Assembly: GCA_021299555.1 (NCBI GenBank)
Contig: JAJTGH010000059.1
Location: 1 to 34,060 of the forward strand
Source of the DNA: Comamonadaceae bacterium
GTDB taxonomy: Bacteria; Pseudomonadota; Gammaproteobacteria; Burkholderiales; Burkholderiaceae_C
Reading direction: 5' to 3'
DNA: 34,060 bases
A program made the translations under genes and the position numbers. Positions 6,235 to 31,084 of this stretch are shown one piece after another (the stretch's first letter is position 1; the number at the start of each line of letters is the position of its first letter). The notes beneath the pieces were generated by a model. The model made no database searches. It was not told the origin of the DNA and saw only the letters and a list, made by a program, of their open reading frames with translations.

Positions 6235-6979
6235 ATGACGATGAAACGACTGCCCTTCATATTCGCCAGCCTCATCGGTCTGATCAGTTGCGCACCCGCA
6301 CTGGCACAGACTTGGCCCACCGCGCCCGTGACCCTGGTGGTCGGCTTTGCCCCAGGGGGCAGCACCGACATTGCCGCTCGCGTCCTGGCCGAACAACTCG
6401 GCAAAAAGCTCGGCCAGTCTGTGGTGGTGGTCAATCGCCCGGGAGCGTCCGGCGTGGTCGGGGCAAATTCCGTGGCCATCTCCAAGCCGGATGGGCAGAC
6501 CTTTCTTTTTGGCTCCGGCTCGCTGGCTTCTGGGCCCAGCCTGAATAAGAGCCTGCCCTACGATGCCAGCCAGGACTTCGTGCCGGTGACTCAGATCACC
6601 AGCATCGCCAGCATTTTGGCGGTCCATCCCTCATTGCCTGCCAAGTCCGTCAAAGAGTTTGTGGACTACGTCAAAGCCAATCCAGGCAAGATCAACTATG
6701 GCTCGGCTGGTGCCGGATCGCTGCAGCACGTCTCGGGGGCACTGTTCGAAAAAGCCATCGGGGCTCGCATGGTCTCCCAAGGGGACGCCGGTGGCCATTG
6801 TGGAGGCCATGAGCAAGGCGATGGCTGCCGCGCTATCGGAGACGGCGGTACGCAACCGCTTGGTCGATCTCGGATTGGAGCCAGTAGGCTCAAGTTCGCA
6901 GGAATTCAGCGCCTTCTTCCAAAGCGAGATTCGCCGCTGGAGAGAACTGGTCCAGATCTCAGGGGCCACCCCCAACTGA
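6235..6979 (+). pseudogene. Bug/TctC receptor with frameshifting internal deletion
   Basis: The gene starts well at 6235, with GGAG upstream. It encodes a signal peptide (MKRLPFIFASLIGLISCAPALAQ), the family motifs FAPGGSTDIAAR and VVVNRPGASGVVGAN, and a domain up to FEKAIGARMV (about residue 180). The reading frame then stops matching. The family C-terminus resumes one frame over from about 6777 as PKGTPVAIVEAMSKAMAAAL...ISGATPN, ending with TGA at 6977-6979. Compared with the intact receptor at 3106-4086, about 76 codons are missing: the part that begins HVPYKG and forms much of domain 2. The receptor should not bind ligand. The original frame has no stop and runs into the CoA-transferase at 7000, so a gene caller may report one artificial fusion protein. 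Confidence 0.85.
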
Positions 6980-6999
6980 GCCACGAGGAGAACAACGCG

Positions 7000-8241
7000 A
7001 TGAGCACTGACGCATCAGCCACCGCACAGACCCCAACAACAGCCCTACAGGGCTTGCGCGTGATCGATCTGACACAGTTCGAGTCGGGCACATCATGCAC
7101 CCAGTTGCTGGCCTGGCTGGGCGCGGAGGTCATCAAAATCGAACCACCGGGCAAAGGGGAGCAAGGTCGCTTTTCCAGTACCGAACCCGGGGTCGACTCG
7201 CACTATTTCATCCAACTCAATGCCAACAAGAAGAGCGTCACACTGGACCTTAAGGCCGAGGCAGGCAAGAAAGTCTTGCGCCAGCTGATCGCAGTCGGCG
7301 ACATCTTCGTGGAAAACTTTGCACCCGGCGTGATCGAACGACTGGGCTTTGGCGCCGCCGAAGTACTTGAATTGAACCCCCGCATCATCTACGCGCGCAT
7401 CAAGGGCTTTGCACCCAATGGCCCCTACGCCAACTATTTGGCTTTCGATCCGATCGCACAGGCCGCCGGGGGGGCCCTTTCCATCACAGGTGAGCCGCAA
7501 GGTCGCCCACTCAAGCCCGGCCCCAACTTCGCCGACTCCGGAGCCGGCTTGCACTGCATCGTCGGCATCTTGGCGGCACTGCATCAGCGTCAGTCCAGCG
7601 GACGCGGGCAGGTTGTGGAAGTCATGATGCAGGACGCCATCATCGCATTCATGCGCATTGCCTATGCGGCTCAAGCCATGTTCGGGCATGCCGCTGTGCG
7701 CACGGCCAATCAAAGCATATTTGCCGGCACCTCGCCCAGTGAAGTCTATCGCTGCAAGGGCGATGGTCCGAACGATTACTGCTACATCTACACCACGCGG
7801 GCGGGCAACAAACAATGGCACAACGTGCTCAAGGTCATTGGACGGGAAGATCTGGTCGATGACCCGCGTTTTCTCACACCCGGCCAGAGGGCGGCGCACG
7901 CGAGCGAAATTGACGCGATGATTTCCCAGTGGACCTGCCAACACGACAAGCGAGAGGTCATGCGACTCATGGGGCAAGCCATGGTGCCAGCCAGCGCCGT
8001 TTTCGACACGATGGAACTCTGGTCAGATCCGCACCTGCGTGAAAGAGGGACCTTCGTGAGCTTCGAGCATCCGCAACGCGGGCAACTGACCATCCCTGGA
8101 AACATGGTCAGGCTGTCGGACTCACACGTGCCCGTGCAATCCCCGCCCGCTCTGGGCGAACATAACGCCGTCATCTATGGTGATCTGCTGGGGCTCAGCG
8201 CTGAGGAATTGGCACAACTCAAGCACAATCAGGTCATCTGA
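7000..8241 (+). CDS. CaiB/BaiF class III CoA-transferase
   Basis: A 413-residue member of the class III CoA-transferases, which move CoA between organic acids (formyl-CoA:oxalate, succinyl-CoA and similar donors). The N-terminus has LQGLRVIDLTQFESGTSCTQLLAWLGAEVIKIEPP, then NKKSVTLDLK and ENFAPGVIERLG. The expected catalytic Asp is Asp179 in GPNFADSGAG, followed by GRGQVVEVMMQDA. The start at 7000 has GAGGAG at the right distance. It follows the ThDP enzyme and the broken receptor in one transcription unit, and probably makes the CoA thioester that the ThDP enzyme uses. The upstream frame is open through the damaged receptor, so any automatic fusion call should be ignored. The donor and acceptor acids are unknown. 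Confidence 0.88.
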   Translation: MSTDASATAQTPTTALQGLRVIDLTQFESGTSCTQLLAWLGAEVIKIEPPGKGEQGRFSSTEPGVDSHYFIQLNANKKSVTLDLKAEAGKKVLRQLIAVGDIFVENFAPGVIERLGFGAAEVLELNPRIIYARIKGFAPNGPYANYLAFDPIAQAAGGALSITGEPQGRPLKPGPNFADSGAGLHCIVGILAALHQRQSSGRGQVVEVMMQDAIIAFMRIAYAAQAMFGHAAVRTANQSIFAGTSPSEVYRCKGDGPNDYCYIYTTRAGNKQWHNVLKVIGREDLVDDPRFLTPGQRAAHASEIDAMISQWTCQHDKREVMRLMGQAMVPASAVFDTMELWSDPHLRERGTFVSFEHPQRGQLTIPGNMVRLSDSHVPVQSPPALGEHNAVIYGDLLGLSAEELAQLKHNQVI

Positions 8242-8260
8242 AGGGTCAGGCAGCGACCCT
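8242..8260 (+). terminator. Weak hairpin after the CoA-transferase gene
   Basis: AGGGTC (8242-8247) pairs with GACCCT (8255-8260), directly after the stop codon. No T-run follows, so it is at best a weak or Rho-assisted end. A second inverted repeat, GCGCCA (8315-8320) with TGGCGC (8327-8332), lies before aat and has no assigned role. Confidence 0.3.
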
Positions 8261-8371
8261 AACAGTGTCGTCGCCATGGATACCACGCACGGCGGGCTGC
8301 TTCGATGACCGTTGGCGCCACGCCAATGGCGCTACCATCCGTCACCGCATCCAAAAGCAGTCAAGCGCTCC

Positions 8372-9106
8372 ATGCCCCAACCCGTTCCCTGGCTCGAAGA
8401 GGGTGAGCCCTTTCCTGCGCTGGAGCAGGCTTGGGGGCCGCAGTCACCTGCTCCCGGGCTACTGGCCGCCGGGGGAGGCCTCTCAGCGACCACACTGATC
8501 GATGCCTACCGGAGAGGCATCTTTCCGTGGTTCAGTGCCGGTCAGCCCGTGCTGTGGTGGAGCCCCGATCCACGCATGGTGCTGCAAACAGCCCACTTTA
8601 AGCTTCACCCTTCCCTGAAAAAAACCATCAAGCGCTTCCTCAGGTCGTCAGATTGCCAGATCCATATGAACCGGGATTTCGCTCAGGTGATCCGGCACTG
8701 CGCGAGCGCGCCGCGTCAGGGACAAAGCGGCACCTGGATCTTGCCCGAAATGATCCAGGCTTACGAGGCACTGCACAAGCGGGGACTGGCCCACAGCGTC
8801 GAGACCTGGATCGACGGGCAGTTGGTTGGCGGCCTGTACTGCGTCGCACTGGGCCGCATGGTTTTCGGCGAATCCATGTTCGCACAACGCACCGATGCGT
8901 CAAAAATTGCGCTCAGCGCACTGGTGGCCTGGTGTCGGACTCAAGGGGTTGAGGCCATAGACTGCCAGCAAAACACCAGCCATCTGGCCTCACTCGGAGC
9001 GGCCGAGATTGGGCGCACACACTTCATCAGCCTGGTGGCACGAGGCATTGAAAAGCCATCAGCGCGATGGCAATTCGACCCTTTATACTGGAACGCGATC
9101 CTGTGA
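8372..9106 (+). CDS. aat: Leucyl/phenylalanyl-tRNA--protein transferase
   Basis: This enzyme transfers Leu or Phe from charged tRNA onto N-terminal Lys or Arg of proteins, marking them for ClpS/ClpAP in the N-degron pathway. The 244-residue product carries the family signatures [37 protein letters not shown], and [33 protein letters not shown]. It ends with [14 protein letters not shown]. The ATG at 8372 gives the usual family N-terminus ([10 protein letters not shown]). The frame is open upstream to a TTG at 8312, but neither start has a clear ribosome-binding site. The bpt gene follows after 10 nt, so both aminoacyl transferases are probably co-expressed. Confidence 0.95.
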
Positions 9107-9116
9107 GGATCTGGCT

Positions 9117-9872
9117 GTGACCCACCTCAAAGACCTCCCGCTGCAGACGCTGCAGTTTTACGCCACCGCACCTTATCCCTGCAGCTATCTGCCAGAGCGG
9201 ATGGCCCGTTCGCAGGTGGCTACGCCCAGCCATCTCATACACAACCAGGCCTACTCAGAATTGGTGGCCAATGGTTTTCGGCGCAGTGGCATGTTCACCT
9301 ACAGGCCACACTGCCAGGGCTGCCACGCATGCGTGCCGCTGCGTGTTCCCGTCGATCGTTTCAAGGCGGATCGCAGTCAGCGCAGAGCATGGAAACAACA
9401 CCAGGACATGCAGGCTCGGGTGCTCAAGCTGTGCTTCGTTGCAGAGCACTACGAGCTGTACCTCAAGTACCAAAGCGGTCGCCATTGTGGTGGGGGCATG
9501 GACCAGGACAGCATCGACCAGTACACCCAATTCCTGCTGCAAAGTCGGGTCAACTCCCGCTTGGTGGAGTTCCGAGATCCTGGCGCCAACGGCCGGCTCG
9601 GCCCCTTGCGCAGCGTCTCCATCCTCGACGTGCTCGAGGACGGCCTGTCGGCCGTCTACACCTTTTACGACCCCACCCGTCGGGCCAGCTATGGCAACTA
9701 CAGCATCTTGTGGCAAATTGAGCAGGCACGCCAGCTGCGGCTGCCCTATCTTTATCTCGGATACTGGATCGAACAGAGTCCGAAAATGAGCTACAAGGCC
9801 CGATTCAGCCCTCACGAAGTGCTCGTTGACGGACGCTGGCAAGAGGGCGCGAACAGTTCGGCCCAGCCCTGA
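9117..9872 (+). CDS. bpt: Aspartate/glutamate leucyltransferase (Bpt, ATE family)
   Basis: Bpt adds Leu from Leu-tRNA to proteins beginning with Asp or Glu, the second branch of the bacterial N-degron pathway. The 251-residue product has the Cys-rich N-terminal motif [18 protein letters not shown]. It also has [21 protein letters not shown] and the ATE C-terminal core [28 protein letters not shown]...YLGYWI. The start is GTG at 9117, with GAGGA seven bases upstream inside the end of aat. A frame opening further upstream would overlap aat and is not supported. The length is normal. In many related genomes pyrD follows; here an IclR regulator does. Confidence 0.94.
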
Positions 9873-9980
9873 GGTGCTCCGCGCCCGGGTAAGCACTCTG
9901 ACGATCCCAGAACACGCTGCCACAGTCCAGCCTCCGACAAGCGTTTTCACCTTGTAAAATTCGAGGCGAACGAGGCGAGA

Positions 9981-10775
9981 ATGAAAAAAAACACGGATTC
10001 CAACGCACCGACCGAGCCCACCGTGCAGGTGATCGGTCGGATGTTCACGCTGCTCGAAATCCTGGCCAACCGGGAAGAGCCCGTCACGCTCAAGGAGATC
10101 AGCGAAAAATCAGGGCTGCACCCTTCAACCGCGCACCGCATCCTCAACGATCTGGCCGTGGGCCGCTTCGTCGACAGGCCGCAGGCCGGCAGTTACAGAT
10201 TGGGTATGCGGTTGCTCGAATTGGGAAACGCCGTCAAGGCCAGGCTCAGTGTGCGCGACGCTGCCCTGATTCCCATGCGCGAGTTGCACAAATTGATACA
10301 GCAGCCGGTCAATCTGAGCGTTCGGCAAGGCGACGAAATCATCTACATCGAACGCGCCTACAGCGAGCGTTCGGGCATGCAGGTGGTGCGCGCCATCGGC
10401 GGTCGTGCACCGCTTCACTTGACGTCCACCGGCAAGTTGTTCCTGGCCGCCGACGATGCTCCACGCGTGCGGGCCTATGCCACCCGAACAGGCCTGGCGG
10501 GGCACACCCAAAACAGCATCACACAGTTGCCCGCCCTTGAGCGGGAGCTTTCAAAGGCCAGGCAGTATGGCATTGCCCGCGATAACGAAGAGCTCGAGCT
10601 CGGCGTGCGCTGCATGGCAGCAGGCATTTATGACGATCAAAACAAGCTGGTGGCGGGCTTGTCGATTTCAGCCCCAGCCAACCGCCTGGACGAAAACTGG
10701 CTGGCAAAACTGCAGGCCACGGCCAGTCAAATCTCTACGGCGCTGGGCCATCGCGCAGCAAAAGCTGCAGGGTGA
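9981..10775 (+). CDS. IclR family transcriptional regulator
   Basis: A 264-residue IclR-type regulator. The N-terminal winged helix-turn-helix occupies about residues 15-75 (VIGRMFTLLEILANREEPVTLKEISEKSGLHPSTAHRILNDL...GSYRLGMRLLELG). The C-terminal effector domain contains the usual LTSTGKLFLA, GIARDNEELELGVRCMAAGIYD and GLSISAPANRL. Proteins of this family bind small organic acids and control catabolic operons. It faces pbpG convergently with only nine bases between stop codons. Its target is unknown; the ThDP/CoA-transferase genes about 2 kb upstream are a plausible but unproven candidate. A possible extended -10 (TTGTAAAAT, 9952-9960) precedes it, and the start is preceded by GAGGCGAGA. 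Confidence 0.9.
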   Translation: MKKNTDSNAPTEPTVQVIGRMFTLLEILANREEPVTLKEISEKSGLHPSTAHRILNDLAVGRFVDRPQAGSYRLGMRLLELGNAVKARLSVRDAALIPMRELHKLIQQPVNLSVRQGDEIIYIERAYSERSGMQVVRAIGGRAPLHLTSTGKLFLAADDAPRVRAYATRTGLAGHTQNSITQLPALERELSKARQYGIARDNEELELGVRCMAAGIYDDQNKLVAGLSISAPANRLDENWLAKLQATASQISTALGHRAAKAAG

Positions 10776-10784
10776 GCGAACAGA

Positions 10785-11906
10785 TCAGCTTTTGAGGCCC
10801 GCTGCCACCGGTGCCTGGCCTTGGGCGTTGCCCTGAAGTGCTGCAGCAGGGCTTTTTTCGACCCAGCGCTTGACCCGCTCGGCATCAGCGAGCCGACTCA
10901 GTTTGCCTGCCGAGTCGAGAAACACCATGATCAGCTTGCGCCCCGCCACCCTGGCCTGCATGACCAAACACTGGCCCGCCTCCGAGATGTAGCCGGTCTT
11001 TTGAAGACCGATCTCCCATTCCGGGCTGTGCACCAAGCGATTGGTGTTGTTGTATTGAAGCGTCTGGCGACCGAGCGTCACTTGATGGCCGGTGGAAGTG
11101 GACAACTCGCGCAACACAGGATCGGCCGACGCAGCACGAACCAAAATGGCCAAATCCTGAGCGCTCGACTGATTGCGGCTGGACAGCCCCGTGGGCTCGA
11201 CGTATCGGGTGTCCTTCATACCCAGTGACTGAGCCTTGCTGTTCATCAGCGACACGAAAGCACCCAACCCGCCGGGGTAGGTCCGGCCCAGCGCATGGGC
11301 CGCCCGGTTTTCGCTCGACATGAGCGCCAGATGCAAGAGCTCACCCCGAGTGAGGCTGACGCCCACGCGCAAGCGCGAGGTGCTGCCCTTCTCGGTGTCC
11401 ACATCATTTTGCGTGATGGTGATCATCTCGTCCATGGACTGCTTGCCCTCGCTGACGATCACACCAGTCATCAACTTGGTCAGCGAGGCGATCGGCAGGA
11501 CGGCCTGATCGTTCTTGCTGAACAACACTTCCTGGGTGTCTTGATCGATCACCAAAGCCACGCTCGATCGCAGCGACAAGGGATCGGCCGAAGCATGCAG
11601 GCCAGCCATCTGACCAAAAGAAGGCCGAGGCGGTCGCGCCTCTGATGCAGGCTTGGACTGTTTGACCCTGGCAGAGCGAGCACGGCCTGATTTGACAGAC
11701 GCAGACGCGCCCGAGGACTTGAGGGCTTGCCGTTTCTTCTGGTCCAGGGCCTTTTGAGCCTGCGATGCAGCTTTATTTTGAGCCTGCGACGCAGGCGATG
11801 CAGCTTTACTTTGGGCCCACACCGGAGCGGTGAAAAGGCATAGCGCCAACACACTGCCAAACACGGCCGCGAGTGACATGAAATTTCTCAAAACTGCAAC
11901 AGTCAT
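10785..11906 (-). CDS. pbpG: D-alanyl-D-alanine endopeptidase, PBP7-like (peptidase S11)
   Basis: A periplasmic peptidoglycan hydrolase of 373 residues. After a hydrophobic signal segment (SLAAVFGSVLALCLFTAPVWAQ) comes a low-complexity Ala/Lys/Gln-rich linker to about residue 100. This linker includes a near-duplicate 18-nt DNA repeat (11762-11779 and 11794-11811). The catalytic domain has all three active-site motifs: SLTK (Ser141, Lys144), SEN (198-200) and KTG (303-305). The family phrases AVLPIASLTKLMTG, GELLHLALMSSENRAAHALGR and LQKTGYISEAGQCLVMQA are intact. The ribosome-binding site is weak at both possible ATGs (11906 and 11879). A good sigma70-like promoter lies upstream at 11945-11973. 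Confidence 0.93.
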   Translation of the reverse strand: MTVAVLRNFMSLAAVFGSVLALCLFTAPVWAQSKAASPASQAQNKAASQAQKALDQKKRQALKSSGASASVKSGRARSARVKQSKPASEARPPRPSFGQMAGLHASADPLSLRSSVALVIDQDTQEVLFSKNDQAVLPIASLTKLMTGVIVSEGKQSMDEMITITQNDVDTEKGSTSRLRVGVSLTRGELLHLALMSSENRAAHALGRTYPGGLGAFVSLMNSKAQSLGMKDTRYVEPTGLSSRNQSSAQDLAILVRAASADPVLRELSTSTGHQVTLGRQTLQYNNTNRLVHSPEWEIGLQKTGYISEAGQCLVMQARVAGRKLIMVFLDSAGKLSRLADAERVKRWVEKSPAAALQGNAQGQAPVAAGLKS

Positions 11907-11944
11907 GAAGTCGACCGAGTTCGGTGATGATCAAACGTGCCGGC

Positions 11945-11973
11945 AGTGTAGCGAAGTTCAAAAAGTTATGCAA
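11945..11973 (-). promoter_or_regulatory. Candidate sigma70 promoter for pbpG
   Basis: On the minus strand, TTGCAT (11973-11968) and TACACT (11950-11945) are spaced by exactly 17 bp. They lie about 40 nt before the pbpG start, in an A/T-rich stretch. Confidence 0.6.
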
Positions 11974-12064
11974 TATCAAAAACTTGCGAGATTTTCCTAA
12001 TGCATAAAAAGCCACATGCACCGTCTTGGACGTGGACAGGTACCTGAGGATGGCGCACGACAAC

Positions 12065-12091
12065 GCAAAAGGGGCCGATGGCCCCTTTTGC
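12065..12091 (-). terminator. Terminator after leuA
   Basis: A perfect 12-bp stem, GCAAAAGGGGCC (12065-12076) with GGCCCCTTTTGC (12080-12091), has a three-base loop about 25 nt beyond the leuA stop. The A/T end of the stem supplies the U-tract on the minus-strand transcript. Confidence 0.8.
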
Positions 12092-12114
12092 TATTCGTTA
12101 TGAAAACGATGAGA

Positions 12115-13653
12115 TCAGCCCTGGGCAGCGACCCGATCGGCCTTGCTTTGAAGCTTGTTAAGCGCACTGAGGTAAGCCTTGGCCGATGCCACAACGATGT
12201 CGGGGTCAGCCCCCACCCCATTGACCACACGCCCACTGTTTTGCAGACGCACAGTCACTTCCCCCTGGCTTTCAGTGGAGCCACTGATGGCATTGACCGA
12301 GTACAGCACCATCTCGGCGCCACTTTTCACATGCGCCTCAATGGCTTTGAGCGATGCATCCACAGGTCCGTTGCCCTCGGCCTGGCTATGAACTTCCTTG
12401 CCATCGGCCGTAAAAACGATGGAGGCATAGGGCATCTCTCCGGTTTCGCTGCGCTGCGACAGCGATACGAAGCCATATTGCTCGTTTTCACTGGTCACGC
12501 TCTCGTCACTGACCAGGGCAAGAATGTCTTCGTCAAAGATCTCGCTCTTTCGGTCGGCCAACTCCTTGAAGCGGGCAAACGCGCTGTTGATTTCTGTCTC
12601 GCTGTCCAACGCAACACCGAGATCCTGCAAGCGCTGCTTGAATGCGTTGCGACCGCTGAGCTTGCCCAAAACGATCTTGTTGGCACTCCAGCCCACATCT
12701 TCAGCACGCATGATCTCGTAGGTGTCGCGCGCCTTGAGCACGCCGTCCTGGTGTATGCCCGATGCATGCGCAAATGCGTTGGCTCCGACCACCGCCTTGT
12801 TGGGTTGAACCACAAAACCCGTGGTCTGACTGACCATGCGACTGGCGGCAACGATGTGTTTGGCGTCCACACCCACATCCAGACCAAAATAATCGCGGCG
12901 CGTCTTGACCGCCATCACCACCTCTTCCAAGGAGCAATTGCCGGCGCGCTCGCCAAGACCGTTGATGGTGCATTCCACTTGGCGAGCACCACCGATTTTG
13001 ACCCCGGCGAGCGAGTTGGCCACAGCCATACCCAGGTCATTGTGGCAATGCACCGACCAAATCGCCTTGTCCGAATTGGGAATGCGCTCACGCAAGGTAC
13101 GTATGAACTCGCCATAGAGTTCAGGCACCGCATAGCCCACGGTATCGGGCACGTTGATGGTGGTCGCGCCTTCGGCGATGACGGCCTCAATCACGCGGCA
13201 CAAAAAGTCGACCTCGCTGCGATAACCGTCTTCAGGGCTGAACTCGATATCGCCCACCAGGTTGCGTGCAAATCGAACCGACTGCTTGGCCTGCTCAAAC
13301 ACCTCATCGGGCGTCATGCGCAGCTTTTTTTCCATGTGCAGAGGCGAAGTGGCAATGAAGGTGTGGATGCGCGCGCGCTCTGCCCCTTTGAGTGCCTCGG
13401 CTGCGCGTGCAATGTCTCGGTCGTTGGCCCGCGACAGGGAACACACGGTCGAATCCTTGATCGCATTGGCGATCGCCCGTACCGCCTCGAAATCACCATT
13501 GGAGCTGGCTGCAAAGCCGGCTTCAATGACATCGACTTTCAGACGCTCGAGCTGTCGCGCAATGCGCAGCTTTTCGTCGCGGGTCATGGAAGCGCCGGGT
13601 GACTGCTCGCCGTCGCGCAAAGTGGTGTCAAAGATGATGAGTTTGTCGGTCAT
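12115..13653 (-). CDS. leuA: 2-isopropylmalate synthase
   Basis: LeuA condenses acetyl-CoA with 2-oxoisovalerate in the first committed step of leucine synthesis. The 512-residue protein begins [19 protein letters not shown], contains the metal-binding [13 protein letters not shown], and continues through [13 protein letters not shown] and [12 protein letters not shown]. It ends with a regulatory domain (about residues 385-510) of the type that binds leucine for feedback inhibition. The ATG at 13653 is chosen for its family N-terminus and the AGGA upstream; the frame opens to 13743 inside the attenuator region and is not real there. It lies downstream of pssA in the ilvBNC-pssA-leuA block. 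A Leu-rich leader peptide and a terminator-like hairpin in front of it suggest attenuation by leucine supply. Confidence 0.97.
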
Positions 13654-13722
13654 TGCAATAGGTCCTGGTTGGCTGGAAAACAACCCCTGGTTCTCAGCAT
13701 TCAGGGCATGGCACAAAGCAAA

Positions 13723-13752
13723 ACGGCCCGGATGCTGAGGCAAACGGGCCGT
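13723..13752 (-). terminator. Attenuator-like hairpin upstream of leuA
   Basis: On the minus strand, ACGGCCCG (13752-13745) pairs with CGGGCCGT (13730-13723) in an 8-bp GC-rich stem, followed by TTTTGCTTTG. It lies between the leader peptide and leuA. The 5' arm can instead pair with the end of the leader peptide: AACGGG (13792-13787) with CCCGTT (13748-13743), and CGAC (13783-13780) with GTCG (13756-13753). That is the expected mutually exclusive fold. Confidence 0.7.
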
Positions 13753-13774
13753 CGACTTCGAACACGCGTGCGCG

Positions 13775-13828
13775 TTACTGTCGCCACCCGTTGGGCGCTA
13801 GCAGTAGCGAGACCGCTTTCGTGTTCAT
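13775..13828 (-). CDS. Putative leuA leader peptide
   Basis: A 17-residue reading frame, [17 protein letters not shown], with three consecutive Leu codons (CTA CTG CTA). CTA is normally rare in high-GC betaproteobacteria. It lies about 120 nt upstream of leuA, followed by the terminator hairpin at 13723-13752. A ribosome stalled at the Leu run would leave most of the region-2 sequence (codons 13-17) free to pair with the terminator 5' arm. A ribosome reaching the stop would mask it and let the terminator form. The ribosome-binding site is weak. A GATAAA (a possible -10) ends eight bases before the ATG, so the message may be leaderless. The structure is seen in the sequence; the regulation is inferred. 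Confidence 0.65.
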
Positions 13829-13879
13829 GGCTTGAGTTTATCACAGCGCGGCGAAGTTGTGTGCCGCCCGGCCGGTGTG

Positions 13880-14692
13880 CTATTTGTGCAGGCCACGCTC
13901 GTCCGGCTCTTCGGTTGATGTGGAGATCACACTGGTCTGCAATCCCTTGTAGCGTCGCCAGAAGTAAAGCACATACCCGGACATACCGTACATTACGAAC
14001 AAGGCAAAAATGACCGTCGGCGGGTCAATATTGATCACGGCAATGCCCAGCGCGATCGAGACGATGACTGCAAAAGGCACACTGCGCTTGAAGCTCACGT
14101 CCTTGAAGCTGTAGAACGGAACATTGGTCACCATGGTCAGCCCAGCGTAAAGCATGAGCGCGAACATGAACCAGCTGACCTCGGCGCCCTTGATGCCTGC
14201 CTCGGTCACCAACCAAATAAAGCCAGTGACTATGGCTGCGGCCGCCGGCGATGGAAGGCCCTGGAAAAAGCGCTTGTCGACCACCGTGGTATTGACGTTG
14301 AACCGCGCCAGCCGCAGCGCTGCACAGGCGCAGTAAACGAAGGCCGCGATCCACCCCCAGCGCCCCAGACCGGTGAGTGCCCAGACATAGGCGATCAGGG
14401 CAGGCGCGGCACCAAATGAGACCATATCAGCGAGCGAATCCATTTGCTCGCCAAAGGCGCTTTGCGTATTGGTCATGCGGGCCACACGCCCATCAAGGCT
14501 GTCCAGCACCATGGCACAAAAAACCCCGATGGCCGCTTGCTCAAAGCGGCCGTTCATGGCCATCACGATCGAGTAAAAGCCGCCGAACAGGGCCGCCAGC
14601 GTGAACAAATTGGGCAGCACATAAATGCCCTTGCGCGGCTTGCGCACCTCGGCCGAATCGGGGCGGGGGGACTGTTCAGGGGTTTCTGGCAT
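13880..14692 (-). CDS. pssA: CDP-diacylglycerol--serine O-phosphatidyltransferase
   Basis: PssA makes phosphatidylserine from CDP-diacylglycerol and serine, the precursor of phosphatidylethanolamine. The 270-residue membrane protein has the CDP-alcohol phosphotransferase signature DSLDGRVARMTNTQSAFGEQMDSLADMVSFG (DG...AR...G...D...D), which binds the CDP group and metal ions. Several hydrophobic segments follow (WIAAFVYCACAALRLARFN, FMFALMLYAGLTMV, AVIVSIALGIAVINI, VIFALFVMYGMSGYVLYFW). The length is normal. It sits between ilvC and leuA on the same strand, an arrangement common in Burkholderiales. Confidence 0.95.
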   Translation of the reverse strand: MPETPEQSPRPDSAEVRKPRKGIYVLPNLFTLAALFGGFYSIVMAMNGRFEQAAIGVFCAMVLDSLDGRVARMTNTQSAFGEQMDSLADMVSFGAAPALIAYVWALTGLGRWGWIAAFVYCACAALRLARFNVNTTVVDKRFFQGLPSPAAAAIVTGFIWLVTEAGIKGAEVSWFMFALMLYAGLTMVTNVPFYSFKDVSFKRSVPFAVIVSIALGIAVINIDPPTVIFALFVMYGMSGYVLYFWRRYKGLQTSVISTSTEEPDERGLHK

Positions 14693-14788
14693 GGCAACAA
14701 GTGTAAAGGCAGGCGCTCACACTGCGAAACCCAGACAAAGCGAAGGCCGCCCTAAAGAGCGCCCTTCTTGATGGCAGCGGCCGAATCA

Positions 14789-15794
<1,006 letters not shown>

Positions 15795-15822
15795 ACGGGT
15801 GGCCGAGCCTTGCAAAAGAGTC

Positions 15823-16314: not shown

Positions 16315-16449
16315 ATCAGCTTCCTCATTTGCCCTGCCCTCCCCCGCACACGGTAATGCGCGGGCTTGGCAGGCCATAGATTCGTCAAGGGAATATGGCC
16401 AGCACGATCGGCAGGCCCCGGTCAAATTTGGTCAGGGTGTCGCGCCGCC

Positions 16450-18225: not shown

Positions 18226-18532
18226 GATGAACCTTTGCGAATTTCTCTAACGAAAAACCTTCGGTGCTCCTGGGCTCGACCTTTTGGGGCGGCTGTGGAA
18301 CTTGAGGTCTGAGACCATGGGCGAGATTGATCTTTCGCCGGATCCAGACCCGTTTGCCTCTTGAACGGAACCATCGATTATGACATCAATAATCCCCATC
18401 GAGTCGATGGACCGATCGATCGGGTGGCAGTGCCATAATCTTTTGGGCCAAGCCCGTTGACCCGATCACCGATCCGCAACGCAGTTTGGCGACAATTCCT
18501 ACCGCCAGCAGAGCGAAGCGCAACAGCACACC
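18226..18532. other. Divergent intergenic region between ilvB and the sigma-factor gene
   Basis: About 307 nt holding the promoters of two divergent operons. A CATAAT (minus strand, near 18380) could be the ilvB -10, but its -35 is poor. Reading frames here do not encode a peptide rich in Ile, Val or Leu. No strong palindrome or terminator was seen. Confidence 0.45.
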
Positions 18533-19102
18533 TTGGCCACTGAAAAAGAACTGTCGGATTTTCTCAAAAGCGTGGAGCGGCGCGCATTCAAGCGCAGCGC
18601 CTACCACGTCAGAAATGACGACGCGGCCTTGGACATCGTGCAAGACAGCATGATGAAATTGGCCCAACACTACGGGGACCGGCCGGTGGCTGAGTTGCAC
18701 CACATTTTTCAGCGTATCCTGTCACACACCATCGTCGACTGGTTCAGGCGGCAAAAAACGCAGCAGGGGCTGTTCTCGAACTTCAGCGATTTGCAGGCTG
18801 GCGTCGATGGCGATGGTGACGGGGACCCGCTTGAGGTCCTGGAGGATTTGCTCAGCTCCGCAGGCACGGAAAGTGCTCAGGATGCCCTGGAACGGTCGCA
18901 AACGCTAAAAAAATTGGAATCTCTCATCATGGAACTGCCCGATCGTCAACGAGAAGCCTTTCTGATGCGTTATTGGGAGGAGATGGATGTGGCGGAGACG
19001 GCCGCAGCCATGGGCTGCTCCGAGGGGAGTGTCAAGACGCACTGCTTCAGGGCGGTTCAGGCGCTCAGCAAAGCCTTGAGGCCCAAGGGGGTTTCATCAT
19101 GA
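18533..19102 (+). CDS. ECF-type RNA polymerase sigma factor
   Basis: A 189-residue sigma70-family factor of the ECF type. Region 2 (about residues 10-75) contains FLKSVERRAFKRSAYHVRNDDAALDIVQDSMMKLAQHYG and ending IVDWFRRQKT. Region 4 (about 125-180) contains ELPDRQREAFLMRYWEEMDVAETAAAMGCSEGSVKTHCFRAVQALSKAL, a standard -35 recognition helix-turn-helix. The likely start is TTG at 18533, which gives the usual (M)ATEKELSDFL N-terminus; no in-frame ATG was found nearby upstream. It overlaps the following DUF3619 gene by ATGA, so that product is probably its regulator. The genes it controls are unknown. Confidence 0.9.
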   Translation: MATEKELSDFLKSVERRAFKRSAYHVRNDDAALDIVQDSMMKLAQHYGDRPVAELHHIFQRILSHTIVDWFRRQKTQQGLFSNFSDLQAGVDGDGDGDPLEVLEDLLSSAGTESAQDALERSQTLKKLESLIMELPDRQREAFLMRYWEEMDVAETAAAMGCSEGSVKTHCFRAVQALSKALRPKGVSS

Positions 19103-19527
19103 ATCTGAATCACTCGAATCAAAAAGAATTGCTCTTGAACCGGCAGGGTATGCGCTTGGCCGCCCACTTGAACCAGACGCTCGATGACCTGCCCAGGGAC
19201 GTCACCGAGCGCCTGCGAGCGGCCCGAGAGCGCGCACTGGCCAGCCGGAAAGTTCAATCGAGCCGCACAGCGGCGGTCTACGGACGCGGCGGCGAACTCG
19301 CACTCGGATGGGGTGAAGAAGAGCGCATGGGTTGGTTTGGACGCCTGAGTTCGAGCTTGGTGCTGCTCATGCTCGTCTTCGGCATACTGGGCATCAGCGA
19401 AGCCCAAACCGATCTGCGCGCCCGTGAACTCGCGGTCGTCGATCTGGCCTTGCTGACGGACGAGCTTCCCCCGGCAGCCTTTGCCGACCCAGGGTTTTTG
19501 CAATTCCTGCAAACTGACGAGATCTAA
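19099..19527 (+). CDS. DUF3619 family membrane protein (possible anti-sigma factor)
   Basis: A 142-residue protein with a cytoplasmic N-terminal half (LPRDVTERLRAARERALA), one transmembrane helix near residues 83-100 (LSSSLVLLMLVFGILGI) and a short C-terminal part. The C-terminal part carries the family phrase LALLTDELPPAAFADPGFLQFLQ. The ATG overlaps the sigma-factor stop, so the two are translationally coupled. A single-span protein coupled to an ECF sigma factor suggests an anti-sigma role, but no such biochemistry is established from the sequence. The family is restricted largely to betaproteobacteria. Confidence 0.8.
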   Translation: MNLNHSNQKELLLNRQGMRLAAHLNQTLDDLPRDVTERLRAARERALASRKVQSSRTAAVYGRGGELALGWGEEERMGWFGRLSSSLVLLMLVFGILGISEAQTDLRARELAVVDLALLTDELPPAAFADPGFLQFLQTDEI

Positions 19528-19553
19528 ATCGCAGGCGAACGAATTAAGCACCG

Positions 19554-20231
19554 ATGACCATGACCGCCCTGGAATCGACGTCTTGCCGCAGTTCGCGCGG
19601 CGGCTCCGTGGGTTCGTGGATCGCCGCAGTGGCGCTGCTCTGGGGGCATCTCGGGGCCGTTGCACAAACAGCAGGAAAGCCTCTGGTCCATGCGACGACC
19701 GCCCCGCCTGTGGCCCAGCCGCAGGCTGCCCGCCCACCGAAGAGCAGCGCGTCGGACTGGGAGCGCTTGAACGCCTCCGAAAAGCAGGCGCTGGCCCCGC
19801 TGGCCGGTTCCTGGGCCGGCCTGAGTGCCACCCAAAAGCGAAAATGGCTGGAAGTCTCAAGAAACTACGCCGCCCTGCCTGCGCCCGATCAAGCCAAGAT
19901 GCACGATCGCATGCGAGACTGGGTGGCCTTGAGTCCACAGGAAAGAGCCCAGGCCCGCCTGAACTTTGCCAAAACGGCTGAAGTTGCGCGTGAGTTGTCT
20001 GCGGCTGAAAAGCTGGCCAAGTGGCAGGCCTATCAGGCACTTTCACCAGAGCAAAAGCAAAAGCTTGCCGAGCAGGCCAAAGGCCGAAGCCAGGGCGCTG
20101 CGACCGCAGTCCAACCGGTACCTACTCAAAAACTCGCTGTGCTGCCGCCCATCAATACGGCAAGAGTCAGCAAGGGCGCTGAGAACCAAGAAGAGCCGAC
20201 CGAATCATCCGACGCGCCGAGCAACCAGTAA
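19554..20231 (+). CDS. DUF3106 family secreted/periplasmic protein
   Basis: A 225-residue protein with an N-terminal hydrophobic segment (SWIAAVALLWGHLGAVAQ) that looks like a signal peptide. The body is rich in short helices with the repeated theme W..L...ER/QK: LAPLAGSWAGLSATQKRKWLEVSRNYAALPAPDQAKMHDRMRDWVALSPQERAQARLNF, then LSPEQKQKLAEQA. This matches DUF3106, which has no assigned function. It lies 26 nt after the DUF3619 gene in the sigma-factor operon and may be an envelope stress or sensing component, by context only. ATG at 19554 or 19560 is possible. Confidence 0.75.
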   Translation: MTMTALESTSCRSSRGGSVGSWIAAVALLWGHLGAVAQTAGKPLVHATTAPPVAQPQAARPPKSSASDWERLNASEKQALAPLAGSWAGLSATQKRKWLEVSRNYAALPAPDQAKMHDRMRDWVALSPQERAQARLNFAKTAEVARELSAAEKLAKWQAYQALSPEQKQKLAEQAKGRSQGAATAVQPVPTQKLAVLPPINTARVSKGAENQEEPTESSDAPSNQ

Positions 20232-20328
20232 ACTGGGGTTTGTGGCGGCGACAAGCCCGCAACAACCCGGCCCAGGCCGATTCGTCAGATCTCGCCTCAG
20301 GCCAACTCCCGTCTTGAACTCCTCCTCG

Positions 20329-20829
20329 ATGACCACTCCATCCATCTTGCGGCGCATGGCGTGCTGGCTTTACGAGGGCATCTTGCTGTTTGGCGTCGTC
20401 TTCATCGCTGATTACCTGTTCAGCGCTCTGAGCCAAACGCGACATGCGCTGGAAAATCGTCATCCCCAGCAAATTTTTCTTTTTCTGGTCCTGGGGATTT
20501 ACTTTGTTTGGTTCTGGGCGCGCGGGCAAACCTTGGCCATGAAAACCTGGCACATTCGTGTGGTAGACCGATCGGGCAATCGATTGACGCAAAAGCAGGC
20601 CTTGCTTCGTTATGTGCTCAGCTGGATGTGGTTTCTACCGCCCTTGGCACTGGTCTGGTTGCTTGAACTCGATGCGCGCTTTTCACTTTTGGCGGTGCTG
20701 ACCTGGGTATTGGCTTGGGCTGGCTGTGCAAGATTACACAGAGACCGCCAATTTCCCCATGACGTTCTGGCGGGCACCCGCCTGATCAACTCCGCGCGGG
20801 ACCAAGCCGCAGCGCAAGCACAGCAATGA
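20329..20829 (+). CDS. RDD family integral membrane protein
   Basis: A 166-residue membrane protein with an RDD-type fold. The N-terminus LRRMACWLYEGILLFGVVFIADYLFS supplies the first helix and the Arg/Asp-like signature. Another helix is QIFLFLVLGIYFVWFWARGQTLAMKTWHIRVVDRSG, and a third is LSWMWFLPPLALVWLLELDARFSLLAVLTWVLAW. It ends with a conserved RQFPHDVLAGTRLI. RDD proteins are of uncertain function; some are linked to ion exchange. The start codon at 20329 is preceded by only a weak site. The stop overlaps the next gene by ATGA. Confidence 0.82.
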   Translation: MTTPSILRRMACWLYEGILLFGVVFIADYLFSALSQTRHALENRHPQQIFLFLVLGIYFVWFWARGQTLAMKTWHIRVVDRSGNRLTQKQALLRYVLSWMWFLPPLALVWLLELDARFSLLAVLTWVLAWAGCARLHRDRQFPHDVLAGTRLINSARDQAAAQAQQ

Positions 20830-21098
20830 GCGATAGGCAGCAAACGCCAGACTGGACGAAGCGAAAGCGGTGCCGAGGGATCGATCGCCTGGTGCACGCC
20901 ACGGGCTACTCATTGGCGGGGCTTTGGACCGGTTGGCGCGGGCCCGCCTTTAGGTTCAAAGCACTGATTGGCGCGCCCCTGATGGGTGAACAGTGGCATG
21001 CGTTGGCCAAACAGGCCAAGGACCTGGGCAGTGCAGCCGTCTTTCTGTCTTTGCTGCTGTGCCTGGGGATTTGGGGCTCGGCCTTATGGACAAGGTAG
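20826..21098 (+). pseudogene. dgkA: Diacylglycerol kinase with in-frame internal deletion
   Basis: DgkA is a small trimeric inner-membrane kinase that phosphorylates diacylglycerol. The N-terminus (RLVHATGYSLAGLWTGWRGPAFRFKAL) and C-terminus (EQWHALAKQAKDLGSAAVFLSLLLCLGIWGSALW) match the family. The product is only 90 residues, where about 122-140 is normal. Roughly 41 codons are missing between FKALIGAPLMG and EQWHAL. That block carries the second membrane helix and the conserved catalytic motif (Glu, Asn-Ser, Glu in the E. coli enzyme). The frame is kept, so a gene caller will list it as intact. The residual protein is very unlikely to be an active kinase. It overlaps the RDD gene by ATGA and the LOG gene by 13 nt. 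Confidence 0.75.
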
Positions 21099-21685
21099 AC
21101 CGGATGCCCAGCTTCTCGATTGGCGTGTACTGCGGCTCCCGACCAGGAGCCGACCCAGCCTGGGCCGAACAAGCGCGCAGCGTCGGGCGATGGATCGCCA
21201 ACCACGGCGGGCAGGTGGTCTATGGCGGTGGGCACAACGGCCTCATGGGCATCTTGGCCGATGCCGCTCTGCAAGCGGGAGGCCAAGTGGTGGGCGTGAT
21301 CCCGAAGGCACTCGTGGACAGGGAGTTCGCGCACCGCGGTTGCACAGAGCTGCACATCGTCGAGACCATGCACGAGCGCAAGCGCATCATGGCCGAGCGC
21401 GCCGACGCCTTCCTGGCATTGCCTGGGGGAATCGGAACTTTGGAAGAATTCTTCGAGGTCTGGACCTGGCGCCAACTGGGCTACCACAACAAGCCGATCG
21501 GCTTGCTCAACCACCTGGGCTTTTACAGCGGATTGCTCAGTTTCTTGAACCACACGGTGAACCAGGGCTTCATGGGACCGTGGCAAATGGACCTGGTCAA
21601 GGTCGACGAGGCGGCTGAGCCGCTGCTGCGCACGCTGGTCCAGGAGGCCGGGCTTCCAGGAGCAACGACACTCGAGCAGATCTGA
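21086..21685 (+). CDS. LOG family protein (possible cytokinin riboside 5'-monophosphate phosphoribohydrolase)
   Basis: A product of about 199 residues with the LOG/TIGR00730 motif PGGIGTLEEFFEVWTWRQLG and the nucleotide-binding MHERKRIMAERADAFLALPGG. The N-terminal GVYCGSRPGAD and VVYGGGHNGLMGILADAAL complete the Rossmann-like fold. Characterised members hydrolyse nucleoside monophosphates such as cytokinin nucleotides or AMP. The ATG at 21086 overlaps dgkA; an alternative is 21104, which has AAGG upstream. It ends 12 nt before the convergent glnB. Older annotations call this family lysine decarboxylase, which is wrong. Confidence 0.85.
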   Translation: MDKVDRMPSFSIGVYCGSRPGADPAWAEQARSVGRWIANHGGQVVYGGGHNGLMGILADAALQAGGQVVGVIPKALVDREFAHRGCTELHIVETMHERKRIMAERADAFLALPGGIGTLEEFFEVWTWRQLGYHNKPIGLLNHLGFYSGLLSFLNHTVNQGFMGPWQMDLVKVDEAAEPLLRTLVQEAGLPGATTLEQI

Positions 21686-21697
21686 TCTAGGCTGGCG

Positions 21698-22090
<393 letters not shown>

Positions 22091-23782
22091 TCAGGCCCGG
22101 AACCGACTGGTGATCGGATAGCGCCAGTCCTTGCCAAAGCTGCGGTGACTGACCCGTATTCCCACCGGTGCCTGGCGCCTCTTGGACTCGTTGATCTTTA
22201 TCAGCCGGGTCACCTGCTCGACCACCTGGCGATCAAACCCTGCCGCCACAATGGCTTCAATCGGCTCATCATTTTCCATGTAACGCGACAAGATCGCATC
22301 GAGCACCTCGTAAGGGGGCAAGCTGTCTTGGTCGGTCTGGTCGGGGCGCAGTTCGGCCGAAGGCGGTCGGGTGATGATCCGCTCAGGGATGGGGTTGACG
22401 CCCCGGCCATAGGGATCATTGGCATTTCGCCAGCGGGCCAGTTCAAACACGGTGGTCTTGAGCAGGTCCGTGATGACGGCAAAGCCACCCGCCATGCCCC
22501 CGTAAAGCGTGCAGTAGCCGGTGGCCATTTCGCTTTTGTTGCCAGTGGTCAGAACGATGGAGCCAAACTTGTTGGATAAGGCCATCAGAATCACACCACG
22601 GATGCGGGCCTGGATGTTTTCTTCCGTCGCGTCGATGGCCCGCCCGGCAAATTCACCCGACAAGGTTTTGAGGAACGCCTCGAATTGCGGCACGATCGAA
22701 TACTCGTCATAGCGCACGCCAAGCCGCTGGGCCATCTCACGCGCGTCTTGCAGAGAAATGTCTGCCGTGTAAGGCGAAGGCATCATGACCGCACGCACCT
22801 TGTCGGGCCCAAGCGCGTCCACGGCAATGGCCAGAACCAGCGCTGAATCGATGCCACCGGACAGGCCCAGCAGCGCCCCGGGAAACCCGTTCTTGCCCAG
22901 ATAGTCGCGCACGCCCAGCACCAGCGCGTCCCACAAATCGGCCTGATGGCTGCGCGGCAAGGCCACAGGTCCGGACAACTCAATCGCATCGTCGCCGGCG
23001 TGCGAGGCCTCAAGAACAAAAGCCTGCTCCACAAAGCTGGCCGCACGGCCGCACAGGTGAGAGTCGGCTTGCAGCGCAAAAGAAGCGCCCTCGAACACCA
23101 CCTCATCTTGACCGCCCACCAAATGGGCAAAAACAAGTGGCAGGCCCACAGCCTTGACCCGCGCGGCCATCGCCGATTCCCGCTCATGGGCTTTGCCCGC
23201 ATGGAAGGGAGAGGCGTTGATGACCGCAAGCAACTGCGCGCCGGCCGCCTGACTGAGCCTGGCGGGCTCCTCGAACCAGGCGTCTTCACAGATGAGCAAG
23301 CCAACACGGATTGCATCGGCGCCCTCACCGACAGAGAAGACGCAGGGGGCCTGCCCAGGAACAAAATAGCGCCGCTCGTCAAACACTTGGTAGTTCGGCA
23401 ACTCCCGCTTGGCATAGGTGTGCAAGCGCCGGCCATGGCTCAGCACGTGGGCTGCGTTGAACAACTGAGGCCGGCTCACGCTGCGGGTGCGCAGCGGGCC
23501 GACCGAATCTGCCACGCTTGGACTGCCGACGACCACGTGCAAGCCCTTCAAATCTGCCAAAGCCATCGCAACCTGATCGACGGCTTCCTCACAGGCCTCA
23601 ATGAAAGCGGGCCGCAAATAGAGGTCCTCAGCGGCGTAGCCGCAAATGGCCAACTCGGGGGTGAGCACCAGCCGACAGCCGTCGGCATACGCCCGCTGTG
23701 CAGCGGCAATGATCATGCGAGCATTGCCCGGCATGTCTCCGACACAATAGTTGAGCTGAGCAACACAAATCTTGAGCGACAT
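22091..23782 (-). CDS. nadE: Glutamine-dependent NAD+ synthetase
   Basis: Amidates nicotinate adenine dinucleotide to NAD+, using ammonia released from glutamine. The 563-residue protein has an N-terminal nitrilase-type glutaminase domain with the triad Glu43 (LTPELAICGY), Lys125 (YAKRELPNY) and Cys165 (LLICEDAWF). A C-terminal synthetase domain follows, with the ATP loop SGGIDS at 308-313 and the family signature TTGNKSEMATGYCTLYGGMAGGFAVI. The start at 23782 gives the usual SLKICVAQLN N-terminus; the ribosome-binding site is weak. It is divergent from the GNAT gene at 23835 and followed by glnB after 54 nt. Confidence 0.96.
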   Translation of the reverse strand: MSLKICVAQLNYCVGDMPGNARMIIAAAQRAYADGCRLVLTPELAICGYAAEDLYLRPAFIEACEEAVDQVAMALADLKGLHVVVGSPSVADSVGPLRTRSVSRPQLFNAAHVLSHGRRLHTYAKRELPNYQVFDERRYFVPGQAPCVFSVGEGADAIRVGLLICEDAWFEEPARLSQAAGAQLLAVINASPFHAGKAHERESAMAARVKAVGLPLVFAHLVGGQDEVVFEGASFALQADSHLCGRAASFVEQAFVLEASHAGDDAIELSGPVALPRSHQADLWDALVLGVRDYLGKNGFPGALLGLSGGIDSALVLAIAVDALGPDKVRAVMMPSPYTADISLQDAREMAQRLGVRYDEYSIVPQFEAFLKTLSGEFAGRAIDATEENIQARIRGVILMALSNKFGSIVLTTGNKSEMATGYCTLYGGMAGGFAVITDLLKTTVFELARWRNANDPYGRGVNPIPERIITRPPSAELRPDQTDQDSLPPYEVLDAILSRYMENDEPIEAIVAAGFDRQVVEQVTRLIKINESKRRQAPVGIRVSHRSFGKDWRYPITSRFRA

Positions 23783-23834
23783 CAAATTCAAAATGCCAAG
23801 TGAAGAGTCTGAAATTTCAGGGTGAAAATAGCCG

Positions 23835-25040
23835 GTGGTGAAAAACAATTATGGCATCCGGTTATTCGATTCATGGGCTGGCCTTCAAGCCGTCCAATGG
23901 AACGCATTGCTGCTTGACCAGTCGGGGCAGAGCCTGGGGCCCTTCATGCGTCACGAGTACCTGTCGGCCTTGCACGACAGCGCGAGCGCGACACCGCTGA
24001 CCGGATGGAAGCTGCAACTGCTGACCCTCTGGCAGAACGACGAACTTGCAGGCGCATGCGCGGTCTATGTCAAGAGCCACTCCTACGGGGAATACGTCTT
24101 TGATTGGGCCTGGGCCAATGCCTTCCAGCAGCATGGCTTGAGCTATTACCCCAAGGCTCTGGTGGCCAGCCCGTTTACGCCGGTGCCCGGCCCGCGTCTT
24201 CTGGCCGTGGACCCAGCGGCCCGCACAGCTCTGGTTCGAGCTCTGGTGCAATGGTGCCAAGAGCAAGGCCTCTCCTCGCTTCATCTGCTGTTTTTATCCG
24301 ACGCCGACCTGCTCGCCTGCACCGAGGCCGGCCTGATGCTGCGCCAGACCGTTCAGTTTCACTGGCACAACAAGCAACCGGCGAGCGCTGGGGAAACAGT
24401 CAGTGCGTTCAGCGATTTCGACGACTTCCTGGCCCATCTGAGTCAAGACAAGCGCAAGAAAATTCGCCAGGAGCGACGAAAAGTCACCGAAGCAGGCGTG
24501 ACGTTTCGCTGGTCACGGGGAATGGCCATTTCCCAGGATGACTGGGATTTCTTCTACCGATGCTATGAGCGAACCTACCTGGAACACGGCAATGCACCTT
24601 ATTTGAGCCGTGATTTTTTTGCGCGCCTTGCTGCGCTGTTGCCTGAGCACTGGCTGCTGTTCATAGCAGAAAGAAATGGACTGCCGATTGCCAGCAGCCT
24701 GATCGGGTTGAGCCACAGCGCACTGCCGGACGGGCCGCCCTTGGTGGCCTACGGACGCTACTGGGGCGCGCTCGAGCGCGTGGACTGCCTGCATTTCGAA
24801 GCCTGCTACTACCAGCCCCTGGCCTGGTGCATCGACCACGGGGTTGCGCGCTTCGAAGGCGGCGCCCAGGGTGAACACAAAATGGCCCGAGCCCTCATGC
24901 CCACACCGACACACAGTGCGCATTGGTTGGCTCACCCGGCCTTTGCAGATGCGGTCGAGCGCTTTTTAGAGCGCGAAGCGGACGGTGTCTCGAAATATCT
25001 GGAGCACCTGGAAAACCGAACCCCGTTTCGGCAAGCTTGA
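23835..25040 (+). CDS. GNAT/FemAB-like acyltransferase (DUF482, peptidogalycan biosynthesis family)
   Basis: A 401-residue protein matching the DUF482 group of GNAT-fold proteins. Recognisable stretches are GPFMRHEYLSALHDSAS, YGEYVFDWAWANAFQQHGLSYYPKALVASPFTPVPGPRL, and SQDKRKKIRQERRKVTEAGVTFRW. A Tyr-rich segment FYRCYERTYLEHGNAPYLSRDFF and the end FEGGAQGEHKMARALMPTPTHSAHW complete the match. Relatives are annotated as peptidoglycan-associated or aminoacyl transferases, but the donor and acceptor are not established. The start is one of two adjacent GTG codons at 23835 and 23838, without a strong ribosome-binding site. It is convergent with the broken ppa gene. Confidence 0.8.
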   Translation: MVKNNYGIRLFDSWAGLQAVQWNALLLDQSGQSLGPFMRHEYLSALHDSASATPLTGWKLQLLTLWQNDELAGACAVYVKSHSYGEYVFDWAWANAFQQHGLSYYPKALVASPFTPVPGPRLLAVDPAARTALVRALVQWCQEQGLSSLHLLFLSDADLLACTEAGLMLRQTVQFHWHNKQPASAGETVSAFSDFDDFLAHLSQDKRKKIRQERRKVTEAGVTFRWSRGMAISQDDWDFFYRCYERTYLEHGNAPYLSRDFFARLAALLPEHWLLFIAERNGLPIASSLIGLSHSALPDGPPLVAYGRYWGALERVDCLHFEACYYQPLAWCIDHGVARFEGGAQGEHKMARALMPTPTHSAHWLAHPAFADAVERFLEREADGVSKYLEHLENRTPFRQA

Positions 25041-25050
25041 AGCCCACCGA

Positions 25051-25065
25051 CCCAAAGCCCTTGGG
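25051..25065. terminator. Short bidirectional hairpin between convergent genes
   Basis: CCCAA (25051-25055) pairs with TTGGG (25061-25065) just after the GNAT gene and just before the ppa stop. It is short and has no T-run, so it is a weak candidate only. Confidence 0.3.
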
Positions 25066-25066
25066 C

Positions 25067-25474
25067 TCAGGCTGACCGAGACTTGCTGTAATTGGCCATG
25101 CCGTCAAGGATTTCCTTGTGGGCGGCCTCTTTGCCCTCCCAACCCAGCACCTTGACCCACTTGCCAGGTTCGAGGTCCTTGTAGTGCTCGAAAAAATGGG
25201 CGATGGTCTTCAAACGCATGGGGTTGAGGTCTTCGGGCTTTTGCCACTGGGTGTAGATCGAAAGGATTTTGTCGATCGGCACGGCAAGGACCTTGCCGTC
25301 TTCACCGGCCTCGTCCTGCATCTTGAGTATGCCGATCGCCCGGCAAGGCACGACGACGCCCGGAATTAAAGGCACTGGCGTGATCACCAGCACGTCCACC
25401 GGATCGCCATCGCCAGAAATCGTTTTGGGCACATAACCGTAATTGGTCGGGTAAGGTGACGTTGTCCAGAGACA
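25067..25474 (-). pseudogene. ppa: Soluble inorganic pyrophosphatase with frameshifting internal deletion
   Basis: Ppa hydrolyses pyrophosphate in the cytoplasm. The normal N-terminus MSLDNVT is present, reading from ATG at 25474. It is followed immediately, one frame over, by YPTNYGYVPKTISGDGDPVDVLV, which in intact enzymes lies about 50 residues in. About 44 codons are missing: the segment from PGKN to the residues before HYPTNYGYV, including metal- and substrate-binding residues near EIP and KYE. The rest is normal (LIPGVVVPCRAIGILKM, HFFEHYKDLEPGKWVKV, ending SKSRSA). A caller will report only the 121-residue fragment from 25432. As read, no full-length enzyme can be made. The membrane pyrophosphatase hppA lies divergently next door and is intact. 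Confidence 0.85.
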
Positions 25475-25746
25475 TTTATTCGAGATCTTCTTTAGGTTGT
25501 GGTCAATGAATGACGGTTCGGACCGTCTCGGGACGTAGGATTACGGGCCGATTAAGTCGGTATTTACCCTCATTTTACTGGTTCGAAGCGGACTCCCGGT
25601 AGGCGCGGCCAGCGAATGGCGCTAAATTTCAGGGGTTGGCCAATCAGTCCCCGTGCGGAGGCGGGGGTGGAGGAAGCAACGCAAGGCGGTGTAGCCTAAC
25701 CCCTGCGTTGCACCGATACCCTCACGTCTAAAAATGGAGAATTGAT
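25475..25746. other. Structured divergent leader region between ppa and hppA
   Basis: About 272 nt without a gene but with many inverted repeats. GACGGT (25512-25517) pairs with ACCGTC (25522-25527), and CCGA (25548-25551) with TCGG (25557-25560). GGCCA (25607-25611) pairs with TGGCC (25637-25641), AGGGGTT (25631-25637) with AACCCCT (25698-25704), and GCAACGCA (25676-25683) with TGCGTTGC (25704-25711). Some pairings exclude each other. The ribosome-binding site GGAG for hppA is near 25736. It does not match a riboswitch I recognise. Confidence 0.45.
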
Positions 25747-28876: not shown

Positions 28877-28882
28877 TTGGCA

Positions 28883-31074: not shown

Positions 31075-31084
31075 GGACAAAGAG

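Follow-up and report, generated by a model that had tools for sequence, protein, structure and literature searches.

The window, meaning the whole stretch of 34,060 nucleotides analysed here (contig C121), belongs to a draft genome of 2,974,055 bases (2.97 Mb) in 217 contigs, which is 82.85% complete with 4.15% contamination. Much of it is collinear with the relatives G012, G046, G074 and G033, and four of its genes, encoding a Bug/TctC receptor, ketol-acid reductoisomerase (ilvC), diacylglycerol kinase (dgkA) and inorganic pyrophosphatase (ppa), each lack one block of sequence that relatives possess (Table 1). The genus-group relatives include the isolate Polaromonas sp. JS666 (G031) as well as MAGs of Comamonadaceae bacterium (G012 and G046) and of a Rhodoferax sp. 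(G029); the closest relatives compared reach about 84% identity in ilvB and about 87% in ilvC, indicating that no genome of the same species is among them. In the ORF list, window positions 28877-34060 carry predicted oxidoreductase, kinase, aldolase and isomerase genes beside TRAP transporter genes, which we take to be a putative four-carbon sugar acid pathway and its neighbouring transporter.

Table 1. Window genes that lack a block of sequence, with the position of each junction and its consequence.
Feature	Position	Strand	Missing block
Bug/TctC receptor gene	6235..6979	+	224 nt missing at 6773/6774; frameshift, C-terminal part in another frame
ilvC (ketol-acid reductoisomerase) ORF	14786..15697	-	133 nt missing at 14848/14849; frameshift close to C-terminus
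dgkA (diacylglycerol kinase)	20826..21098	+	in-frame loss of 40 residues (120 nt); junction at roughly 20964-20990
ppa (inorganic pyrophosphatase)	25067..25475	-	131 nt missing at 25453/25454; frameshift close to N-terminus

The Bug receptor gap was measured against G012 only, whose contig C9 aligns with the window up to position 6773 and resumes at 6774-6776 after 224-226 additional bases; the reading frame passes from frame 3 upstream of the junction to frame 1 downstream, and the PF03401 match is limited to profile positions 2-133 of 274. The ilvC gap amounts to the same net length against each of G012, G074, G046 and G033; its PF01450 match spans positions 1-103 of 144, and beyond the junction 21 unrelated residues lead to a stop. 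In dgkA the loss appears as a 40-residue gap when the 130-aa protein of G012 is aligned by tblastn, and the PF01219 match covers only 67-100 of 102; the position of this junction is uncertain, having been placed from the protein alignment, as nucleotide alignments give no fixed point. The net length of the ppa gap is identical against G012, G046 and G074, and the remaining ORF (25067-25432) begins at PF00719 position 41 of 153; the frameshift in this gene follows from the gap length. The Pfam matches of the four genes are thus all shortened in keeping with the missing blocks, and the frame is shifted in all of them except dgkA. The initial annotation had described four single blocks of 120-230 nt with no insertion at the junction, and the comparison bears this out on both counts: the lengths lie within that range, and at the three fixed junctions (Bug, ilvC and ppa) there are only 0-4 unmatched bases, the number varying with the relative. 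Adjoining ppa is an ORF (25747-27951) whose translation suggests that it is presumably membrane pyrophosphatase-like, and the loss of ppa alone is therefore no proof of lethality.

The same genes are complete nearly everywhere else. Counting a copy as complete if its tblastn alignment contains no stop and no gap of at least 10 residues, among loci with a match, we find complete ilvC at 76 of 82 loci, the other six being the window and five loci cut at an end; complete ppa at 37 of 40, with the window, one end-cut locus and one MAG with a different gap making up the remainder; and complete dgkA and Bug at 47 of 48 and 7 of 8 loci, respectively, the window being the incomplete one in both cases. 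These are counts of loci and not of genomes, some loci being the same contig counted twice, and some of the Bug matches may be paralogous. The window's four gaps are absent from all other loci examined. The one differing ppa, in the MAG of Hydrogenophaga sp. Prado208 (L055 1298-1789), aligns with a 15-residue gap of its own and a stop, and may be a similar error in a different assembly. An automatic gap screen of relatives gave a background of seven flags in 896 gene comparisons, of which five fall on a single ORF (L125:17850-18338), interpreted as extending glnB upstream, and two are in-frame 45-nt gaps. This screen recovered only one of the four window gaps, and its low background is accordingly weak evidence; the per-locus copy counts are stronger.

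A survey for similar losses, as had been proposed, shows that such gaps recur elsewhere in the part of the assembly compared. The sample comprised 69 stretches (860,054 bases, including the window) from this assembly and 62 (1,126,480 bases) from G012; collinear chains between the two cover about 165 kb, of which about 143 kb lies outside the window. Among 29 candidate sites we kept 16 clean blunt gaps, 13 of them outside the window, with sizes of 25, 46, 50, 75, 77, 84, 84, 100, 126, 128, 131, 133, 169, 185, 190 and 224 nt. The choice was made by eye and without a single threshold: eight of the 13 dropped sites have more than five unmatched bases, two (L198 11403 and L213 8125) score low, dgkA is not alignable, and two others (L205 13367, 27 nt, and L219 4651, 65 nt) score no worse than some that were kept. 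Blunt gaps occur across the compared sequence, in the window and outside it, irrespective of gene or frame.

The excess of losses on this side is seen in several counts. Among the length differences of at least 40 nt that were listed, 35 are missing here and 10 are missing in G012; a fixed rule applied to the listed rows after the choice by eye (at most five unmatched bases and a score per base of at least 0.6) gives 14 gaps missing here against three in G012. A symmetric tblastn test, covering 137 genes (46,585 aa) here and 140 genes (46,561 aa) in G012, finds seven genes of this assembly split by 25 nt or more, one of them an ORF whose status as a gene is doubtful, and none in G012. In-frame gaps of at least eight residues run the opposite way, with two missing here and seven in G012. 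When L274 16932-18032 is compared with L205 (G000:C80), a further TctC-type receptor shows an in-frame gap of 159 nt in this assembly; it was not counted, and may reflect either true divergence or paralogy.

Because relatives' sequence has to stand in for the lost ends, microhomology figures are approximate, and the simulated blunt cuts used for comparison were made in the same relatives. The shared sequence at the junction ends averages 0.6 nt over the 16 sites, compared with 0.86 nt in simulated blunt cuts, a 12-base fuzzy comparison gives 3.6 against 3.4, and one of the 16 junctions has 4 nt of shared sequence; neither the exact nor the 12-base comparison thus reveals microhomology beyond chance at these 16 junctions. 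Four candidate origins, namely microhomology deletion, replication slippage, k-mer overlap and overlap-based merging of reads, were rejected on this similarity to simulated cuts. The comparison of junctions for short shared sequences suggested at the outset therefore came out empty, and junctions as blunt as these argue against slippage, microhomology joining and amplification chimeras, leaving blunt joining.

The initial annotation had also proposed chimeras from multiple-displacement amplification. Chimeric molecules from such amplification or from PCR can delete short blocks and could have been assembled, and there is one out-of-order junction in this assembly, at an hrpA-like gene; such chimeras usually arise at short shared sequences, however, which the 16 junctions lack beyond chance, and the 4.15% contamination is more in keeping with a metagenome bin than with a single amplified cell. 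We regard this origin as very improbable.

Blunt junctions would suit non-homologous end-joining, and the third proposal made initially, a real deletion-prone process, has to be weighed in this light: blunt end joining would remove short blocks in this lineage, and the affected genes would be recent pseudogenes. That the gaps were seen in this genome only, with the remainder of each gene conserved, is how very recent deletions would look. A search for Ku with PF02735, however, gave no matches in this assembly, which is about 83% complete; in a control the profile matched one of 14 known genomes, that of Bacillus subtilis. There is also a size ceiling near 220 nt among the 16 kept sites, found with a screen not built for much longer gaps.

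The identity of the genes that are hit weighs further against a biological process. Proteins of G012 whose counterparts contain gaps are named by NCBIfam, each above at least one curated cut-off, as DnaK, ApbC, ArgA, GspE, a sarcosine oxidase beta family protein, a 3-hydroxybenzoate 6-monooxygenase and a type II haloacid dehalogenase; Pfam identifies others as a periplasmic binding protein and an FAD oxidoreductase, one substrate-binding protein scores below its NCBIfam cut-off, and the ORF hit in L238 is without a Pfam match and may not be a gene. The haloacid dehalogenase gene, at L205 (G000:C80) 13798-14038, lacks about 128 nt and has a stop ahead of the gap, and it also contains about 87 nt that are absent from G012, some 120 nt from its gap.

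Considering 17 sites (the 16 kept and dgkA), we set aside three from the frame count, namely L169, where the gap lies at the start of its ORF, L216, where the coding strand is doubtful, and L205 13798. There remain 14 coding gaps with a readable frame (11 besides those of dgkA, ilvC and ppa), and 12 of these shift the frame, including those in dnaK, apbC and argA; the two that keep it are in dgkA and at L223 1862. By length alone, 12 of the 16 gaps are not a multiple of three; the reading frame nevertheless changes at three gaps whose length is such a multiple, those in DnaK, the L208 binding protein and the 3-hydroxybenzoate monooxygenase. The broken DnaK is the only match above the DnaK curated cut-off in the assembly (a second DnaK-family match is intact but below it), and a stop follows two residues past the junction. 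This break is at profile position 566 of 596, close to the C-terminus, so that a truncated DnaK might keep some function. Frameshifts in dnaK, apbC, argA and ilvC of one living bacterium, in genes that are otherwise conserved, are nonetheless hard to credit. We consider a genome-wide burst of real, recent blunt deletions of 25-220 nt, reaching even dnaK and proceeding by Ku-independent end joining, extremely unlikely, and the deletion-prone process as a whole no more probable; the same assembly also contains plain gap and overlap errors of the scaffolding type.

These errors are evident in the N runs, of which there are eight in 860 kb, with lengths of 63, 6, 21, 4, 56, 4, 51 and 14 bases. Three of the eight have exactly overlapping flanks (20, 42 and 6 nt). 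At each of the six loci compared, 10 nt occupy the place of the 63-N run; the 21-N run falls 21-47 nt short of four relatives if the match holds no other length change; and the 14-N run is of nearly the right size. The runs in L191 (where the relative differs by 4.7 kb), L201, L189 and L169 provide no usable size comparison, the last two having been measured for end overlap only. We rejected a fixed underestimate of every gap, because the runs err in both directions (63 for 10, 21 for approximately 40-70, and 14 about right).

Two long perfect tandem duplications were also found. At L136 (G000:C3) 3463-3670 a 74-nt duplication puts the end of a gene with helicase and DUF3418 matches by Pfam, which we take to be hrpA-like, out of frame and adjoins the junction at which the gene order departs from that of G012; at L217 (G000:C92) 1296-1523 there is a 114-nt duplication with no match in the relatives compared, which may be real or another unmerged overlap. 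An excess of tandem duplications as a sister error was rejected, since these (74 and 114 nt) are the only two long perfect ones and exact tandem repeats are not commoner here in total, with eight in 0.86 Mb against 20 in 1.13 Mb in G012.

Taken together, the recurrence of blunt gaps outside the window, their indifference to reading frame, their absence in the relatives compared and the wrongly sized N runs lead us to conclude, from sequence comparison, that the four gaps are very probably an assembly artefact of one kind or another and not part of the biology of the bacterium. Misassembly was among the causes first put forward, in the form of misassembly of strain variants, and it is the misassembly that finds support and the strain variation that does not. 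A collapse of strains would require that some co-occurring strains truly carry the deletions and that the assembler chose the short path; a bin with 4% contamination can hold several strains, but the pool would have to contain frameshift deletions in argA, apbC, ilvC, ppa and dnaK. Moreover, a search of the assembly for the missing ilvC, ppa and Bug blocks found no copy of the first two elsewhere, and for Bug only weak partial matches that are paralogue-like. This makes a strain origin most improbable.

How an assembly artefact of this form might arise can be outlined. The draft would have been built from short reads with a scaffolding step, in which stretches of about 25-220 bases were left unassembled between contigs and the flanking contig ends were joined on read-pair evidence. 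Where the gap size was judged zero or negative the ends would have been butted together or trimmed, with no Ns; some assemblers append or trim contigs at such estimates. A positive estimate would instead have given an N run of the wrong size, sometimes between ends that truly overlap. We think it reasonably probable, with some reserve, that this scaffolding route alone is the source of the gaps.

Outside the window, 13 blunt gaps fall within about 143 kb of aligned sequence, a density roughly ten times that of the N runs (eight in 860 kb). A single error distribution with the blunt gaps as its negative half therefore does not by itself account for both, and there may be a second source, for example concatenated mate pairs. 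Here non-overlapping read pairs would have been concatenated without a spacer, the false read being the only path where coverage was thin, and the missing length would equal the insert size minus two read lengths; blunt joins in a limited size range (25-224 nt) that far outnumber N runs are what this would produce, but it leaves unexplained the N runs between overlapping ends, which need a scaffolder. Within the artefact reading we see this as a rather unlikely account, the scaffolding route being the better candidate.

Whichever route applies, an assembly artefact of this kind calls for caution, as extrapolation from the 13 sites in about 143 kb aligned outside the window suggests that false gene breaks in this draft may number a few hundred. 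These would pass for pseudogenes or for lost pathways, as here for branched-chain amino acid synthesis through ilvC. Even without reads the pattern can be screened for against relatives, by its blunt gaps, its mixed frames and its N runs between overlapping ends.

The gaps can be compared with two known classes of error. In a local misassembly of the type defined by evaluation tools such as QUAST, the two flanks keep their order on the reference, with less than about 1 kb of gap or overlap between them. The flanks of the window genes are likewise in order with the relatives, with a block missing only here; the reference in our case is another species (about 84% identity in ilvB) and not the same strain. 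The errors that Chen et al. 2020 (PMC7111523) describe were recognised by lack of read support, whereas the gaps here were recognised by comparison with relatives, and the passages of that paper that bear on them give no size range and no blunt deletions as such, in contrast to the blunt gaps of 25-224 nt found here. Those passages report that wrong local joins in metagenome-assembled genomes break genes, that such joins are suspected to be most prominent in IDBA-UD, and that Ns are inserted despite overlapping flanks in IDBA-UD and CLC assemblies. The present assembly resembles these cases, as described there, in both respects, with local joins that break genes and with Ns between ends that overlap.
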